Part shown: piece after piece, positions 20,096 to 32,199 of the stretch | How positions within the stretch are numbered: position 1 is the first letter of the stretch | How the letters are laid out: every line of letters starts with the position of its first letter | From: an uncultured Schlesneria sp. | GTDB lineage: Bacteria > Planctomycetota > Planctomycetia > Planctomycetales > Planctomycetaceae | Length of the DNA: 51,760 nucleotides | NCBI GenBank assembly: GCA_903899985.1 | Contig: CAIULL010000262.1 | Location: forward strand, 1 to 51,760 | Direction of reading: 5' to 3' | Translations under genes and position numbers: made by a program | Notes under the pieces: model-generated | Databases searched by the model: none | What the model was told of the DNA's origin: nothing | What the model saw: only the letters and a program-made list of their open reading frames with translations

Positions 20096-20243
20096 TTGGA
20101 ACGCGTGGTGTCATTTGTCGCCCATTGACAATCCTGTTTCTCGTGGCCATCTTCAAACTCATTCCGGGGCAAAACGGCTGAAAAACGAAACCTGACCATG
20201 CGGCGCTCGTCGCAATCAACTGATCGCAGGCAAAGGCGAGAAC

Positions 20244-22052: not shown

Positions 22053-22309
22053 TTCTAAGTGACAATCTGTCAGAACTTACGGCGAGCGATGATACCGCTT
22101 GTACCAATGCTTGTACCAGCGAGCCGAAAAATCCTCGAAATCCGGGTTTGGATGCCTCTTCTTCGATCGAAGAAGGCAAGACCGAAGTGATGCCTGATTC
22201 GGTCAACTCGGACTTCGCCGCTGCTCTCAAAATGCTCGCCTCATTGCCGCTGTCGGATGAAGAACGAACCGAAGCGGTTCGACGGTTGATTGCTGGCAAT
22301 CACAAATAG
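22001..22309 (+). CDS. Unknown short ORF over a probable integrase-tail relic
   Basis: A 102-codon frame whose 3' end codes for a plausible small helical segment (DFAAALKMLASLPLSDEERT). At 22097-22119 it contains 23 bp identical to the recombinase gene at 31935-31957, but read one base out of phase; in the recombinase phase the DNA gives LVPMLVP here too. This suggests the region holds the decayed 3' end of a second, related integrase, as is usual where planctomycete islands are stacked. Whether the present frame is translated is doubtful. Confidence 0.3.
   Translation: MERGIRERNALRTHESIVLSDNLSELTASDDTACTNACTSEPKNPRNPGLDASSSIEEGKTEVMPDSVNSDFAAALKMLASLPLSDEERTEAVRRLIAGNHK
22097..22119 (+). 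repeat. 23-bp direct repeat, left copy
   Basis: Identical to 31935-31957 inside the recombinase gene. The repeat itself holds the word gcttgtacca twice, 12 bp apart. The two copies bracket about 9.8 kb containing the unknown small genes, restriction remnants, ART candidates and recombinase. It most likely records homology between two integrase tails, not a target-site duplication. Confidence 0.7.
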
Positions 22310-26217: not shown

Positions 26218-26471
26218 TGCTCAATCCTCCTGACCCGATGCGGGATCATTTGAATTACTTGCTCAGTGCGATTGAGAATCACCCAACGTTGGATTGGACG
26301 ACGACGGAAAGCCTCTTAACGAAGGGGCGAAACGTCGAAAGCGTTCCAGAACTTCGACTTTTCATGCGGGAATCAGAAGCGGCGCATTCACCCGACACAT
26401 TCTCGGGGTTCAGACGGGCATCGGCGTGCCTCATATCAGTGGACAGCAGATTAAAGACTTTGTGTTTCTAA
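26217..26471 (+). CDS. Unknown ORF running into the hsdS fragment
   Basis: 84 codons from ATG 26217, coupled to the preceding short ORF. The first 60 residues look like a real protein (MRDHLNYLLSAIENHPTLDW, then ESLLTKGRNVESVPELRLFM). After about 26390 the same DNA, in another frame, codes for the C-terminus of HsdS, so this ORF ends in out-of-frame sequence. It is best read as the 5' part of a gene cut by a recombination junction. Function unknown. Confidence 0.3.
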   Translation: MLNPPDPMRDHLNYLLSAIENHPTLDWTTTESLLTKGRNVESVPELRLFMRESEAAHSPDTFSGFRRASACLISVDSRLKTLCF

Positions 26472-26626
26472 TGCCCCCTGTAGAAGAACAGCGAAGCATT
26501 GCGGACAATTTCGAATCACTCCGAAATGAGACTCAACGTCTCGAAGCCGTCTACCAACGCAAACTCGCCGCACTCGACGAACTGACGAAGTCACTTCTTC
26601 ACCATGCCTTCAGCGGTCAATTGTAG
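26294..26626 (+). pseudogene. 3' fragment of a type I restriction specificity gene (hsdS)
   Basis: The last about 75 codons code for the end of an HsdS subunit: TGIGVPHISGQQIKDFVF, then PPVEEQRSIADNFESL and a coiled-coil helix (LEAVYQRKLAALDELTKSLL) ending HHAFSGQL, the standard HsdS closing pattern of the second conserved region. Homology begins near 26395; codons upstream in this frame do not fit HsdS. Both target-recognition domains and the central conserved helix are missing, so the fragment cannot specify a DNA site. It ends 9 bp before hsdR, which keeps the normal hsdS-hsdR order. No hsdM is in the window. Confidence 0.8.
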
Positions 26627-26635
26627 GGCCAGACC

Positions 26636-29044
26636 ATGAACGAAGCCGAAACCCGTGCCGATCACATCGACCCCGCGTTGAAAGCCGCTGGCTGGGGTGT
26701 CGTCGAAGGAAGTCGCATTCGACGTGAATACGAAATCACGATGGGACGACTCGAAGGTTTCGGGCGACGAGCTAAGAAGCTCAAGTGTGACTACGTTCTG
26801 GAATACCGCAATACAAAACTTGGCATCGTCGAAGCCAAGGCTTGGGACGAAGCCCATACCGAAGGGGTTGCGCAAGCGAAGAACTACGCCGAAAAAATGG
26901 CGATCCGTTTCACGTATTCCACGAACGGACAATTGATCTATGGCATCGACATGGAGACGGGAACCGAGGGGGACATCAACCGTTATCCGACGCCGGATCA
27001 ACTCTGGAATCTGACGTTTGCCCAGCAAAACACATGGCGGGACCGTTTCGCCGCCGTTCCGTTTGAAACCAAAGGAGGCTATTTCCAAAGCCGCTATTAT
27101 CAGGATATCGCTGTCGAACGAGTGACCGAAGCGATTGCCGCCGGAAAACAACGAATTCTGCTCACGCTTGCCACCGGGACAGGAAAGACTTTCATCGCGT
27201 TTCAGATTGCCTGGAAGCTGTTTCAAAGCCGCTGGACGTTAAGCAGGGAAGGTGGTCGCCGCCCGCGAATTCTGTTTCTTGCCGATCGGAACGTTCTCGC
27301 CAATCAAGCTTTCAACTCGTTCTCGGCATTTCCTGATGATGCGATGGTACGAATTGAACCTGATGGAATACGCAAAAAGGGCCGCGTACCGAAGAACGGC
27401 AATTTGTTCTTTACGATCTTTCAGACATTCATGTCCGGGCCGCCGAAAGACGGAAAGCCGTCACCTTACTTCGGGGAATACCCGTCCGATTTCTTCGACT
27501 TCATCATCATCGACGAATGCCATCGGGGCGGGGCAAACGATGAAAGCACATGGCGAGGAATCCTCGACTATTTCGCGCCTGCCGTGCAACTCGGTCTGAC
27601 CGCGACGCCTAAGCACAAAATCAACATCAACACCTATGAGTATTTTGGGAAACCCGTCTACGTCTATTCGCTGAAGGATGGCATCAACGACGGATTCTTG
27701 ACGCCGTTCAAAGTTCGCCAGATCACGACGACGAAAGACAAATACATCTACACGCCTGATGACAAAGTTCTTCAGGGGGAAGTCGAAGAGGAAAAGGAAT
27801 ACGAAGAGAAGGATTTCAATAAACTGATCGAAATCAAAGAACGGGAGTCGCATCGAGTCAAGCTGATCATGGATACGATTGACCAGCGACAGAAAACCTT
27901 GTTCTTTTGTGCGACCCAGCAACATGCTCTTCTCGTTCGTGACCTGATCAATCAGATGAAGACCAGCGCGGAACCGAATTACTGTGTTCGCGTCACTGCC
28001 GATGATGGCGAGTTGGGCGAACAGTATTTGCGAAACTTTCAGGACAACGAAAAGAGTATTCCGACGATCCTGACGACATCACAAAAACTTTCGACAGGCG
28101 TCGACGCTCGAAACGTGCGAAATATTGTGTTGATGCGTCCGGTCAATTCGATCATCGAATTCAAACAGATCGTCGGGCGGGGGACTCGCCTGTACGAAGG
28201 GAAAGATTATTTCACGATTTACGATTTCGTAGAGGCGTACAAGCATTTCAAAGACCCCGAATGGGATGGTGACCCCGTCGACGAAGAACCCTGCAAAGCT
28301 TGTGGCAAAAACCCATGCGAATGCGTTTGTGAAAAATGCAAATTATCCCCGTGCGAATGCGTGAAGGAACCGCCAAAGCCCTGCAAAGTTTGTGGTAAAC
28401 GACCGTGCGAATGCGAACGCGGACCTTGTCCCGTCTGCAATCAGAATCCGTGTGAATGTCCGAAACGGCAGATGCTCAAGATTCAACTCGCCGATGGGAA
28501 AGCTCGGTTGATTCAACACACGATGGCGACGAGTTTCTGGCATCCTGACGGTACACCGATGTCGGCTCAACAGTTCGTCACCGCTCTGTACGGCAACTTT
28601 CCCGAGTTCTTCAAGGATGAAGCGGAATTGCGAACGCTTTGGAGCGCACCAGAGACACGGGCGAAGCTGCTGGAAGGGTTAGCCGAAAAGGGGTTTGGCG
28701 AAGAACAGATGACCGAGATGCAACGGATCATCGACGCCGAAAAGAGTGACCTGTTCGACGTTCTCGGGTTCGTGGCATTTGCCCTGGCACCGTTGACCCG
28801 TGAAGAACGGGCCGCTCGGGCAAAACTACAAATCCAAACACAGTTTGACGACAAGCAACAAGCGTTTCTCGATTTCGTGCTGGCGCAGTACGTGAAAGTC
28901 GGAATCCGGCAACTCGACCAAAGCAATGTGACGCCGCTGATCAAACTCAAGTACAACGATTCGCTGAGCGATGCGATTGCCGACCTTGGACCGGCAGAAC
29001 AGATCAGGAACACGTTCACGGGGTTTCAGAAGTATCTGTATTAA
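26636..29044 (+). CDS. hsdR: Type I restriction enzyme R subunit (EcoEI-like)
   Basis: 802 residues, full length for the EcoEI/type IB-like group. The N-terminal nuclease has Asp52 and Glu66-x-Lys68 (VEAK) of the PD-(D/E)xK site. The SF2 helicase motor has ATGTGKT (179-185), DECH (293-296), LTATP (321-325) and QIVGRGTR (511-518). Residues 553-608 are a Cys-rich insert of four C-x2-C-x3-P-C-x-C units (for example CKACGKNPCEC, CKVCGKRPCEC), probably zinc knuckles. The C-terminal domain (610-802) would contact HsdM/HsdS. HsdR needs HsdM2HsdS to restrict DNA; here hsdS is a fragment and hsdM is absent, so the enzyme is orphaned unless partners lie elsewhere. All key residues are intact. Confidence 0.9.
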   Translation: MNEAETRADHIDPALKAAGWGVVEGSRIRREYEITMGRLEGFGRRAKKLKCDYVLEYRNTKLGIVEAKAWDEAHTEGVAQAKNYAEKMAIRFTYSTNGQLIYGIDMETGTEGDINRYPTPDQLWNLTFAQQNTWRDRFAAVPFETKGGYFQSRYYQDIAVERVTEAIAAGKQRILLTLATGTGKTFIAFQIAWKLFQSRWTLSREGGRRPRILFLADRNVLANQAFNSFSAFPDDAMVRIEPDGIRKKGRVPKNGNLFFTIFQTFMSGPPKDGKPSPYFGEYPSDFFDFIIIDECHRGGANDESTWRGILDYFAPAVQLGLTATPKHKININTYEYFGKPVYVYSLKDGINDGFLTPFKVRQITTTKDKYIYTPDDKVLQGEVEEEKEYEEKDFNKLIEIKERESHRVKLIMDTIDQRQKTLFFCATQQHALLVRDLINQMKTSAEPNYCVRVTADDGELGEQYLRNFQDNEKSIPTILTTSQKLSTGVDARNVRNIVLMRPVNSIIEFKQIVGRGTRLYEGKDYFTIYDFVEAYKHFKDPEWDGDPVDEEPCKACGKNPCECVCEKCKLSPCECVKEPPKPCKVCGKRPCECERGPCPVCNQNPCECPKRQMLKIQLADGKARLIQHTMATSFWHPDGTPMSAQQFVTALYGNFPEFFKDEAELRTLWSAPETRAKLLEGLAEKGFGEEQMTEMQRIIDAEKSDLFDVLGFVAFALAPLTREERAARAKLQIQTQFDDKQQAFLDFVLAQYVKVGIRQLDQSNVTPLIKLKYNDSLSDAIADLGPAEQIRNTFTGFQKYLY

Positions 29045-29136
29045 GGGGATCACATGCTTTGTTCGCATGACCGTCTTTTTCAACATTGGTGACATGACAA
29101 CAAGGGCAAGAACCACTACTGATTGAGATTAGACCC

Positions 29137-29604
29137 ATGAAGCTGTATGAAGTTTGCGACGAGAGAATTTCCCTTAAAGAGCAAGGGGTTTACGAAGCCG
29201 AATTGGTCAAAGCGTATTTCGACGTACGAACAAATTATTCAGGTTGGTCTTTAAAGAAATTAGAAATGTTGTTCGCTTATGGCGATCGTCAGCGAATTCG
29301 AGAAGCTGGCGATCCGATACCGGAAGGAGAGAAATTCACCCTTTATCGCGGTGTAGCTGGAAAAAGACCGCTCCGCAAGGTGGCGGGGTTTTCGTGGACC
29401 AGTTCGTTAAAAGTCGCGGTTTGGTTCGCAACGAGAGACAAGGAATTGCACGACCCCGCTATCTATACAACAACTGTCTCGGCGAGCGAAGTCTTGTGCT
29501 ACATCAACGAACGCGAAGAACAAGAGTTCCTGCTTCGTGCGAAACACTACAAACGATTGAGTCTTCCAGAAATTGCCAAGAAACTCGGCGCTACTTTAGG
29601 CTAA
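29137..29604 (+). CDS. Putative ADP-ribosyltransferase (R-S-E type fold)
   Basis: 155 residues. Three blocks in the right order match the R-S-E class of ADP-ribosyltransferases: Arg71 in FTLYRGVAG, the STS-like FSWTSSLKVAVWFA (85-98), and an E-x-E pair at Glu128/Glu130 in INEREEQEFLL, the turn that carries the catalytic glutamate. In this class Arg binds NAD, Ser-Thr-Ser shapes the pocket, and the second Glu transfers ADP-ribose. The N-terminal 60 residues are helical and could be a substrate or regulatory part. No signal peptide is seen, so it would act inside the cell. It lies 92 bp after hsdR on the same strand. The target is unknown; a toxin or anti-phage role is inferred from location only. 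Confidence 0.6.
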   Translation: MKLYEVCDERISLKEQGVYEAELVKAYFDVRTNYSGWSLKKLEMLFAYGDRQRIREAGDPIPEGEKFTLYRGVAGKRPLRKVAGFSWTSSLKVAVWFATRDKELHDPAIYTTTVSASEVLCYINEREEQEFLLRAKHYKRLSLPEIAKKLGATLG

Positions 29605-29642: not shown

Positions 29643-29679
29643 TTGATGTTTACGACCAAGAGTGTATCATTTGATACAC
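29643..29679 (+). promoter_or_regulatory. Promoter with overlapping 18-bp palindromic operator
   Basis: GTGTATCATTTGATACAC at 29662-29679 is a perfect inverted repeat. A -35-like TTGATG (29643-29648) and -10-like TATCAT (29665-29670), 16 bp apart, place the -10 inside the palindrome, so a protein bound there would block RNA polymerase. The XRE gene starts two bases later (29681), making it the natural autorepressor. Transcription would begin about 29677, implying a nearly leaderless message. Palindrome and spacing are seen; repression is inferred. Confidence 0.7.
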
Positions 29680-29680
29680 C

Positions 29681-29923
29681 ATGAACAGCGATCAACCGAT
29701 AACAGACGCATTGAAGCAAGCAATCGAGAACAGCGGACTATCGATCAAGGCATTGGAACGGGAAACGGGCGTATCGCGACAATCGATGATGCACTTCATG
29801 CGAGGGACGCGAACGCTTCGACTCGACATCGCCGACAAGCTGGCGACGTTCTTCAAACTGGATGTTCGACCGGCAACAGACAACGCGACGACGAAAGCCG
29901 TTAGAATTCGTAAAGGAACATGA
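29681..29923 (+). CDS. XRE-family transcriptional regulator
   Basis: 80 residues with a Cro/CI-type HTH: DALKQAIENSGLSIKALERE for helices 1-2, then TGVSRQSMMHFMRG as turn and recognition helix, and LRLDIADKLATFFKL as helices 4-5. The short basic tail (VRIRKGT) has no extra domain. It begins directly after the palindromic operator and so is probably an autorepressor. The stop codon overlaps the next ATG (atga at 29920-29923), indicating translational coupling with the 'WHYT' family gene. XRE regulators commonly serve as antitoxins or as element repressors; both fit here. No conventional Shine-Dalgarno precedes ATG 29681. Confidence 0.85.
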   Translation: MNSDQPITDALKQAIENSGLSIKALERETGVSRQSMMHFMRGTRTLRLDIADKLATFFKLDVRPATDNATTKAVRIRKGT

Positions 29924-30408
29924 TGCAATCAACAGACTCCAAAAGCATCCTATGGCACTACACGATGCACAGTTCGTTAGTCGATATTCTGCGCTTAGGA
30001 GAAATTCGTCTCCCGCCTCCCCCTGCAAAAGGTGAAAAGCCGGTCATTTGGTTCTCAAAAAATCCAATATGGGAACCGACTGCGTCAAAACAAATAACCG
30101 CAGTCGATGGATCATCATCAAGAGAATTGACTATGGAACAGACCGCAATATTGGGTAACGGGTTGGGCCGAATTGGTGTGGATTCACAGACGGCTCCGCA
30201 CGATTGGAGGGGTTTCAAGGCACTAAGCGGGGCTGCGACAAAAGTGACGACGTCCCTATACAACGACGCTCACAAGAAGGGCGCAAAACCGAAGGACTGG
30301 TACGTTTCATTTTCATCTGTACCCAAATCCGCTTGGGTATCGGTTGAAACTTGGGACGGCTTCAACCCGTTGGGGTGGGTGACGTACGATTTCCAAGGAG
30401 GTAGTTGA
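29920..30408 (+). CDS. 'WHYT...WFS' family protein, possible ART-fold enzyme, coupled to XRE gene
   Basis: 162 residues (ATG 29920 or 29923; AAAGGAA just upstream). Conserved-looking blocks: LWHYTMHSSLVDILRLGEIRL (residues 11-31), KPVIWFSKNPIWEPTAS (40-56), GRIGVDSQTAPHDWRGFKAL, and VPKSAWVSVETWDG near the end. An N-terminal H-Y/T strand followed by a helix 'l..Il..G.ir' and then a WFS strand is how H-Y-[E/Q]-type ADP-ribosyltransferase relatives (KptA, DarT-like) begin; Glu143 could be the third catalytic residue. I believe related uncharacterised proteins exist in other bacteria, but could not check. Overlap with the XRE gene and a 6-bp gap to the recombinase gene show one operon. Toxin, accessory mobility factor or defence enzyme are all possible. 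Confidence 0.55.
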   Translation: MMQSTDSKSILWHYTMHSSLVDILRLGEIRLPPPPAKGEKPVIWFSKNPIWEPTASKQITAVDGSSSRELTMEQTAILGNGLGRIGVDSQTAPHDWRGFKALSGAATKVTTSLYNDAHKKGAKPKDWYVSFSSVPKSAWVSVETWDGFNPLGWVTYDFQGGS

Positions 30409-30414
30409 AACATC

Positions 30415-32199
30415 ATGGGTTCTGTCTATCGAGAAACGTACACGAAACCGCTGCCCGCAACGGCTGAGATTGTCACCGTGAAGGGCAAGAAGTTCGCCCG
30501 AGTGAAACCGTCGAAGGGTAAAGCAAAACTGTTGCCGATCACGACGGGCAAGAACGGCGAAGCTCGGATCGTGTACGAATCGCCGGTATACGTGGCGAAG
30601 TATCGGGATGGCTCGAATCATATTTGCAAAGTTACGACCGGATGCCGGGATGAAGACGCCGCTCGTTCGATTCTCGGCAAACTGGAACGCCGGGCGGAAC
30701 TGGTTCGAAGCCAAGTCATTTCACCCGCCGAAGCCTCGACCGCCGATCATCAGGGAACACTGATTGCCGATCACTTCGAAGTGTATCACCAGCATCGAAC
30801 CGCCAAAGGACTGAACGCGGTTCGAATCGCCAACACGAAAGCGCGTTTGAAACGATTGGCTGATGAATGCCGATTCACTCGACTGTCGGAACTGACGGCT
30901 GACGCTTTGACAAAGTGGCTTGCCATTCAGCACACGAACAAGATGTCCGCCGGGAACCGGAATGAATACCGGCAAGAGTTGGTCGGGTTCGCTAACTGGT
31001 GCGTTCAGACTCACAGACTTTCCGTCAATCCATTCGCCAACGTACTGAAAGCGGATGCGAAAACGGATCGACGACGGCAACGGAGAGCGATGACCGAAGC
31101 CGAATTGGTCAAACTGCTCGAAGTGGCTCGATGGCGACCGTTGGCCGAGTTTGGCAGAGAAACGGCGGAAGTGGACGATGAGAACACCGAAGCGACCGAC
31201 AAAATCGTGAAACGATCGAACTGGACGAAAGCCGCTCTGACGCTGGACGGGTTGTATGATGCCGTCGAACGAGCAAGAAAGACTCTGGCCAAAAACCCTG
31301 AACTGATTGCAGACCTGGAACGACGCGGACGAGAACGAGCATTGATTTACAAGACGCTCGTCCTGACCGGACTGCGGAAGGGCGAACTTGCTTCAATCAC
31401 TGTCGGACAACTGGAACTCGACGGGCCGATGCCGTTCATCGTTTTGGAAGCTGCCGACGAAAAAAACCGGCAAGGCTCAACGATACCGTTACGATCGGAC
31501 TTGGCATCGGATTTGACCGTTTGGCTGTCTGATGTCCCGATTCCCTCGACGCTTCGACTGAGCAAGAACCACGGGAAGATCGACCCCAAGCGACCGCTTT
31601 TCACCGTTCCCGCCGGGCTGGTTCGGATTTTGAACCGGGATTTGTCGGCGGCTGGAATCAACAAAGCCGACGAACGGGGCCGGACGATCGACGTTCACGC
31701 CTTGCGAACATCATTCGGCACGCTGTTGTCAAAAGGTGGCGTTGCACCACGAACCGCACAAGCCGCAATGCGACATTCCACAATCGACCTGACGATGAAC
31801 ACCTACACCGATCCAAAGCTGTTGGACGTTCAAGGTGCGTTAAACTCGCTGCCAAGCCTGGACCTTAACCCGCGCCAAACAACCGAACGGCAATCGATGC
31901 GAGCAACGGGAACTGATGACATGCTGTCTTCACAGCTTGTACCAATGCTTGTACCAGACTCTGGAAAAAGTAGGCAAATTGTGTCATTTGTTGCCCAAGC
32001 ATCAGAAAACACCAATGTGTCGAACCCAATGCGATCGGGAACAGAAAACCCCAAGAAATCAAGCGAAAAAGCCTTGTCCACAGAGTTTGTGAACAAGGCT
32101 TTTCGAGTGGAGCGGAAGGGAGTTGAACCCTCGACCTCTGCATTGGTTTTGATGTTGGTATTTGCCCTTCGGGCGCCCGGATGTTTTTGGGGACTATGA
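30415..32199 (+). CDS. Tyrosine site-specific recombinase (integrase) of the island
   Basis: 594 residues as annotated. An SAM-like core-binding domain (about 115-215) precedes the catalytic domain: Arg in VLTGLRKGELAS, His-x-x-Arg in IDVHALRTSFGTLL, then AAMRHSTIDLTMNTYTD with the His and the nucleophile Tyr. GGAGGT lies 10 bp before ATG 30415, inside the end of the previous gene, so the XRE, ART-like and recombinase genes form one operon. The last about 45 codons are unusual: the frame passes through a terminator hairpin (32066-32103) and the 3' half of a tRNA gene (32108-32146), giving RKGVEPSTSAL, a read-through tail frequent in planctomycete integrases. The functional protein may end earlier in evolution terms; the tail probably depends on the integration site. 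Confidence 0.92.
   Translation: MGSVYRETYTKPLPATAEIVTVKGKKFARVKPSKGKAKLLPITTGKNGEARIVYESPVYVAKYRDGSNHICKVTTGCRDEDAARSILGKLERRAELVRSQVISPAEASTADHQGTLIADHFEVYHQHRTAKGLNAVRIANTKARLKRLADECRFTRLSELTADALTKWLAIQHTNKMSAGNRNEYRQELVGFANWCVQTHRLSVNPFANVLKADAKTDRRRQRRAMTEAELVKLLEVARWRPLAEFGRETAEVDDENTEATDKIVKRSNWTKAALTLDGLYDAVERARKTLAKNPELIADLERRGRERALIYKTLVLTGLRKGELASITVGQLELDGPMPFIVLEAADEKNRQGSTIPLRSDLASDLTVWLSDVPIPSTLRLSKNHGKIDPKRPLFTVPAGLVRILNRDLSAAGINKADERGRTIDVHALRTSFGTLLSKGGVAPRTAQAAMRHSTIDLTMNTYTDPKLLDVQGALNSLPSLDLNPRQTTERQSMRATGTDDMLSSQLVPMLVPDSGKSRQIVSFVAQASENTNVSNPMRSGTENPKKSSEKALSTEFVNKAFRVERKGVEPSTSALVLMLVFALRAPGCFWGL
31935..31957 (+). repeat. 23-bp direct repeat, right copy
   Basis: Identical to 22097-22119. 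Within the recombinase gene it encodes QLVPMLVP, just before the read-through tail, and contains the word gcttgtacca twice. See the left copy. Confidence 0.7.
32066..32103. terminator. Strong hairpin terminator inside the recombinase 3' end
   Basis: Eleven-bp perfect stem (aaaagccttgt at 32067-32077, acaaggctttt at 32093-32103) with an inner caca/tgtg extension. A-run before and T-run after make it bidirectional. On the minus strand it lies 4 bp beyond the tRNA 3' end, so it may originally be the tRNA gene's terminator, carried with the attachment core. In the plus direction it sits within the recombinase reading frame, about 95 bp before the stop. Confidence 0.8.
32108..32146 (-). other. 3' half of a tRNA gene, probable attachment core
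   Basis: On the minus strand this reads as tRNA positions 35-73: anticodon-loop end ccaa, stem tgcag, variable loop aggtc, T arm gaggg-ttcaact-ccctt, acceptor ccgctcc and A73. The 5' half is absent: DNA at 32147-32200 does not give a D arm or matching acceptor strand. C36 and A73 with U70 (allowing G3-U70) would fit tRNA-Ala best, but the anticodon is incomplete. Such 3' halves are standard attP/attR cores for tyrosine recombinases. No second copy was found in the window. Confidence 0.65.

Follow-up and report, generated by a model that had tools for sequence, protein, structure and literature searches.

A 51,760-base window of contig C262, from a planctomycete genome of 8.0 Mb in 296 contigs, carries three co-directional genes at 29681-32199 (+ strand; all coordinates are those of the window) that encode an XRE-type regulator, a 162-amino-acid (aa) protein and a tyrosine recombinase (integrase). 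Comparing this operon with related loci, we found that the XRE and integrase genes form a conserved unit and that the gap between them is a variable slot. The 162-aa protein, which fills the slot in the window, is predicted with high confidence from its modelled structure to have an ADP-ribosyltransferase (ART) fold. We read the locus as a variable toxin/defence slot within a repressor-controlled integrase operon, occupied in the window by an ART effector, and give this reading a probability of roughly 0.6. The features of the operon are as follows.

29643-29670, + strand: promoter-like TTGATG-16-TATCAT before the XRE gene, weak by shuffle test
29662-29679, + strand: operator GTGTATCA-TT-TGATACAC, including TGTA-N8-TACA at 29663-29678, conserved in related XRE loci
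29681-29923, + strand: XRE/Cro-C1 type regulator, 80 aa (Pfam HTH_3, 4.7e-6)
29920-30408, + strand: ART-fold protein, 162 aa, with WHYT, WFS and VE motifs (AlphaFold, Foldseek and family alignment A3)
30397-30402, + strand: GGAGGT, ribosome-binding site of the integrase within gene 2 (sequence inspection)
30415-32199, + strand: tyrosine recombinase (integrase), 594 aa (Pfam PF00589, 3.2e-13)

The XRE stop codon TGA (29921-29923) overlaps the ATG of gene 2 at 29920 by 4 nucleotides (nt), 6 nt separate the stop of gene 2 (30408) from the start of gene 3 (30415), and GGAGGT lies inside gene 2, confirming in the sequence the layout that an earlier note on this DNA had described. The integrase has a Phage_integrase domain and the motifs GLRKGEL, HALRTSFG and RHSTIDLTMNTY, which we take to be the catalytic R, HxxR, H and Y motifs. 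Eight Pfam families match the XRE protein, all of them helix-turn-helix (HTH) types or weak chance matches. GC content gives no sign that the ART gene is foreign, an equally low value occurring in 77 of 254 GC windows.

At a threshold of 1e-30, 20 of 392 phylum genomes contain a relative of the integrase, and at 1e-80 so do 30 of 170 genomes of the family. We compared 48 integrase loci (the window, L079, L111, L112 and L142-L185), chosen for a match from near residue 1 and some upstream sequence, a choice that excluded fragments and most copies at contig ends. A profile grown from the window XRE located an XRE gene upstream of the integrase in 34 of the 48 loci. The two genes abut in 23 loci, with gaps of -1 to 17 nt, and in six loci one or more genes lie between them.

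Window: ART-fold gene
L111: HSDR_N + RAMA gene, 365 aa, with a 4-nt overlap between the XRE stop and its ATG (Pfam)
L145: zinc ribbon gene (Pfam)
L149: GIY-YIG gene, 1.7e-5 (Pfam)
L177: LRR gene (Pfam)
L181: remnant, then Phd and ParE genes (match to the scanned L179 genes at 1e-43 or better)

Four other loci (L146, L161, L169 and L185) have the XRE gene and then 99-240 nt without a clear gene, and in L180 a Phd-ParE pair abuts the integrase with the XRE gene 2.5 kb off. The 14 loci without an XRE match comprise six with toxin-antitoxin (TA) or Fic genes, six with neither, and two at contig ends (L156 and L159, with at most 210 nt upstream of the integrase); in L156 what remains upstream finishes, right at the integrase, with a C-terminus resembling that of a zinc-ribbon protein. 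A ParE gene followed by another XRE gene adjoins the integrase in L153, L172, L175 and L176, a Phd-ParE pair does so in L179 and a Fic gene in L178, and ParE-XRE, Phd-ParE or Fic stands against the integrase in seven loci besides the six with inserts (identified by Pfam for proteins of L153, L172, L178 and L179 as Phd/YefM, ParE and Fic, and by likeness for the rest). Relatives of ParE were found in seven loci, each only at the integrase-adjacent place in the 281 kb searched, which is a small control since the stretches are centred on that place. The ART family occurs in one of the 48 integrase loci, the window alone.

The pair L149 and L151 captures the slot with and without an insert: the two loci are 99.4% identical over 1,871 nt running into the XRE gene, past which L149 carries 629 nt, with an altered XRE end and the GIY-YIG gene, in place of the 75 nt that make up the normal XRE end in L151, and after the insert the integrase resumes at 96% identity. 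On the integrase tree (47 rows, 44 of them different, with L159 excluded for its translation of 4 aa), the insert labels are unclustered; the six inserts need six changes, at least four of them forced by starred branches, and the TA/Fic group needs five changes, at least three of them forced. The tree changes and the L149/L151 pair together indicate that what the slot holds has changed several times, whether through gains or losses.

The operator lies immediately before the XRE gene and recurs with it. The segment 29662-29679 consists of two perfect 8-bp arms around TT, and its reverse complement differs at two positions, so that the earlier description of it as a perfect 18-bp palindrome is not exact. 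When the ~93-nt upstream region was shuffled 200 times by dinucleotides, 1% of the shuffles reached an inverted repeat this long, and TGTA-N8-TACA is present in a single copy in the window, at the XRE start. We examined 32 related loci (the 34 with an XRE match minus L180, for its distant XRE gene, and L160, which is too short) and found TGTA-N8-TACA at the XRE start perfectly in 16, with one mismatch in 4, with two in 3 and with three or four in 9, the form having first been noticed in the inverted-repeat results for these very loci, so that its choice for the test was not blind. The 280,885 nt of related loci hold 16 copies, all at XRE starts; their mean rate across these loci predicts 0.26 copies for the regions examined. 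From the last base of the 16 perfect sites to the start codon, given as the nearest in-frame one, there are 3 positions in 11 cases and 4 in one; three further sites have 0 and the last has 16. A general inverted-repeat test on the 32 XRE loci showed a slight excess (mean arm 5.4 versus 4.4 in shuffles), and L147, of the same genus, has the same 8-bp arms embedded in 12-bp arms. The rarity in shuffles, the single copy in the window and the recurrence at the same place in related loci make the operon with its operator more than chance, and conservation in those loci supports the operator that had been proposed before the XRE gene. TATCAT at 29665-29670, with TTGATG 16 nt upstream, is a promoter-like match that was not above chance in the upstream region (1 found versus a shuffle mean of 1.5).

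The 162-aa protein belongs to an uncatalogued but real and widespread family. It has no match in Pfam or PHROGs at E 1 or less, only chance-level matches in NCBIfam (0.11) and PADLOC (0.013), and nothing or two chance-level matches in sequence searches of the PDB, and 11 family members run against Pfam gave one weak unrelated match and none to RES. Its AlphaFold model (pLDDT, the predicted local distance difference test, 90.9) contains an ADP-ribosyltransferase core fold. ART-fold enzymes made up 48 of the 50 matches listed by Foldseek against the PDB and 50 of the 50 listed in a second structural comparison, counts judged by titles, in which the DUF952 protein CC0527, TreX/TreTu and typhoid-type toxin chains were presumed to be ART-fold. 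The structural neighbours include DarT, Tpt1/KptA and bacterial ART toxins, and AlphaFold and Foldseek thus uphold the earlier term 'ART-like', the predicted fold being related to that of ADP-ribosyltransferases. Residues H13, Y14, P41, W44, F45, S46, E52, G64, R84, W96, G121, W127 and W153 are invariant in alignment A3 (n=11), and the position of E143 holds E in 7 sequences, Q in 3 and G in 1. Judging from this alignment, H13, S46 and E143 are candidate catalytic triad residues (H-Y-E or R-S-E type).

We found the family in 10 of 392 phylum genomes (its own genome counted), in 17 of 72,556 plasmid records (Vibrio, Photobacterium and Cupriavidus), in 1 of 50,697 phage records (Pseudomonas phage phiAH14b), in five confirmed loci among 60 stretches of the genome_contigs collection (three of them outside Planctomycetota by their titles), and in eight IMG/VR loci, near-copies among them. 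In scans of viral sequences, neither the window protein nor alignment A2 nor a Vibrio plasmid homologue retrieved a relative, the phiAH14b homologue retrieved one, and a gapped DNA pattern picked out seven viral stretches, all seven true relatives by profile.

Neither partner of the window operon accompanies these homologues in the loci scanned. In 28 of 28 ART loci outside the window (21 plus 7 from IMG/VR, with L019 and L024 apparently one contig and some IMG/VR loci near-identical), no homologue of the window XRE or integrase was detected at thresholds of 0.01 and 0.001; the sequence of L020, L022 and L073 extends only a little way to one side, and the search covered relatives of these two genes rather than regulators or recombinases of other kinds. 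The 17 plasmid matches are represented by seven retrieved and six scanned loci. Among the loci as a whole, L032 had no family match and L078 lay outside the scan. In phage phiAH14b, the phage's own annotated integrase lies 4.5 kb from the ART homologue. The earlier note had tied the ART protein to both the XRE protein and the recombinase; with all 28 homologue loci lacking either gene and the XRE gene abutting the integrase without an ART gene in 23 of 48 loci, that tie is not supported. Homologues never found beside an XRE gene or recombinase, the outcome which the note itself had named as telling against it, are what we observed for this XRE and this integrase.

The ART homologues have recurrent neighbours of other kinds. 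On four Vibrionaceae plasmids (L012, L013, L014 and L015) the ART-fold gene is followed within ~0.6 kb by a DUF6884 gene; in L012 and L013 a gene on the opposite strand separates the two. In six planctomycete loci (L025-L028, L030 and L031) the ART-fold gene is convergent with a pntB-like gene, which we take to encode NAD(P) transhydrogenase beta, at distances from a 4-nt overlap to ~25 nt apart.

Under the reading that we favour, the XRE protein would bind 29662-29679 and repress a single mRNA for XRE, the ART protein and the integrase, and when XRE becomes scarce, because a new cell has been entered or the element has been lost, the ART protein and the integrase would be produced together. 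The ART protein would be the effector, placing ADP-ribose onto a cellular or phage target or breaking down NAD+, and might act as an addiction toxin or a phage-defence enzyme; XRE would be chiefly regulatory and may restrain the ART protein by repression alone. XRE probably regulates the operon and is at most a candidate antitoxin. We infer a toxin or defence role from the fold and from what sister elements carry in this position, namely ParE, Fic and nuclease-type genes, and the toxin or defence gene that the earlier note had suggested draws its support from position (ParE, Fic, GIY-YIG and HSDR_N-RAMA at the same place in related elements). A broader version, which we put forward tentatively and with more doubt than confidence, is that the integrative elements of planctomycetes reserve a slot for interchangeable effectors, so that a single XRE operator would switch the integrase along with an enzyme that harms or protects, and loss or dilution of the repressor would unleash movement along with killing or defence.

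Other explanations have been weighed against this one. XRE and the ART protein could form a true toxin-antitoxin pair, as in Xre-RES, with the integrase hitch-hiking behind: the XRE gene comes first and the ART-fold gene second with a 4-nt overlap, a palindromic operator sits at the promoter as in Xre-RES (PMC12204516), and ParE-XRE modules take the same place in L153, L172, L175 and L176. However, 23 of 48 loci have the XRE gene directly before the integrase with no ART gene, the ART homologues are without a homologue of this XRE in all 28 loci outside the window, and RES and DUF2384 are unmatched in Pfam. Because XRE goes with the integrase, we consider a true XRE-ART pair quite unlikely. 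We also think it unlikely that the ART gene is plain phage or plasmid accessory cargo, for counter-defence or for repair of modified RNA in the manner of Tpt1/KptA, that landed by chance in the operon. Homologues in phage phiAH14b, IMG/VR contigs and large Vibrionaceae plasmids are consistent with cargo, as are the lone gene convergent to a pntB-like gene in six planctomycete loci and the root-mean-square deviation (rmsd) to Tpt1, the lowest among the matches listed (2.7 Å over 85 residues, 20% identity); yet the ART gene overlaps the XRE gene and contains the ribosome-binding site of the integrase, its position is repeatedly filled by toxins or nucleases in sister elements, and the Tpt1 match is confined to the C-terminal lobe. 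As for an ART protein that influences integration or excision through a modification of XRE or of the integrase, the shared operon speaks for it and nothing further does, whereas the family was not found in the other 47 integrase loci and is widespread without this integrase, and we regard the idea as very improbable.

The operon belongs, on our reading, to a planctomycete integrative element. Three further features bear on its ends.

32066-32104, - strand: terminator-like hairpin, resembling one after tRNA-Ala(CGC) on contig C295
32104-32146, - strand: 3' half of tRNA-Ala(CGC), lying within the 3' end of the integrase gene and matching the intact copy of contig C295 at 95% over 41 nt
22094-22119 and 31932-31957, + strand: 26-nt direct repeat with doubled CTTGTACCA

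The tRNA-Ala(CGC) half is a putative attachment site, and L111 and L112 each have an intact tRNA-Ala(CGC) that overlaps the 3' end of the integrase gene. The 26-nt repeat is a possible set of integrase arm sites near the two ends of the element. We rejected the idea that the window element is seated in tRNA-Ala(CGC), only the 3' half being present here and the intact gene lying on contig C295. In genome G415, of the same genus, matches to window positions 20112 and 32182 are 2.4 kb apart with other content between them, and the element therefore seems to sit at another site, between chromosomal genes. The integrase coding end (32104-32199, - strand), with its 3' tRNA half and no 5' half, likewise suggests a non-tRNA site. 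Elsewhere, the integrase tail of L079 resembles another tRNA end, and that of L081 overlaps an intact tRNA-Arg(CCG).

Upstream of the operon, 29137-29604 (+) encodes a 155-aa protein that matches PHROG 4776 (2.2e-13) and FRG (0.06) and carries the motifs YRG, SWTSS and EEQE, which to us look like those of an R-S-E type ART. It has no relative in the viral scan and weak matches in one phage and six plasmid records, and its single-sequence fold (pLDDT 31.6) was unusable. Farther upstream, at 26294-29044 (+), a type I restriction HsdR gene (802 aa) lies beside a C-terminal piece of HsdS; because no HsdM was seen among the window proteins scanned, this restriction system looks broken. A stretch 92% identical to window 26623-29045 stands upstream of the XRE-integrase unit in L146. 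In the same genus, L109:5071-6514 holds a relic in which a RhuM gene (PADLOC PDC-S05) is followed by an XRE gene 86% identical to that of the window, with no homologue of the window integrase within the 16-kb locus.

If our reading is true, it brings to light an ART-fold family that is not yet catalogued, is spread over phages, plasmids and chromosomes, and has a good structural model; the conserved operator makes the regulation directly testable; and a recombination module besides Tn3 has toxin-type genes built into the operon for its movement, where they are more than ordinary cargo. L149 and L151, near-identical with and without an insert, would offer a clean comparison of the value of a slot gene to the element. 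Our data suggest that the supposed bond between ART, XRE and integrase be replaced by a variable slot, to which the window adds a new ART family as a putative effector.

Compared with known ART-fold enzymes, the 162-aa protein resembles DarT in its top Foldseek PDB matches (7omy, E 0.016, probability 0.97) and in an H-x-T motif on the first strand that we take to be the DarT motif, but the identity is 12%, the protein has 162 aa versus about 200 in DarT, and no DarG macrodomain was found by Pfam in the 10 window proteins scanned, XRE and integrase included. Its core superposes on Tpt1/KptA with an rmsd of 2.7 Å over 85 residues at 20% identity (8tg4) and of 2.8 Å over 83 residues at 16% identity (9ld6); however, the aligned part covers only about residues 89-183 of this RNA 2'-phosphotransferase, and a PTS_2-RNA family match with both lobes was not obtained, the protein having no match in Pfam.

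Xre-RES systems consist of an Xre gene and an ART-fold protein in a two-gene operon with a palindromic operator at its promoter (PMC12204516). The window likewise pairs an XRE gene with an ART-fold gene under a palindromic operator, but relatives of the window couple the XRE gene to an integrase and not to an ART gene, Pfam detects no RES domain in the 162-aa protein at E 1 or less, and DUF2384 is absent as a C-terminal domain from the eight Pfam families matched by XRE. Literature listings on planctomycete integrases, XRE-integrase operons, TA genes beside integrases, defence hotspots and cargo lying between a regulator and an integrase showed nothing on this arrangement, which is not proof of its absence, subscription papers and preprints lying mostly outside their coverage; the word 'integrase' does not occur in the main text of a review of TA systems in mobile elements (PMC12548467).

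The closest printed precedent for the slot is the presence of TA pairs in Tn3-family transposition modules, where TA genes lie mostly directly upstream of the resolvase gene, inside the recombination module, and ParE is among their types (PMC7157771). In seven sister loci ParE-XRE or Phd-ParE families stand next upstream of the integrase, a place taken in the window by the ART gene, a candidate toxin gene. Unlike the Tn3 modules, these loci have a tyrosine integrase, belonging to elements that target tRNA genes, often retain an XRE regulator together with its operator, and accommodate in the slot ART, Fic, GIY-YIG, HSDR_N-RAMA, LRR and zinc-ribbon genes as well, which come without a recognised antitoxin.

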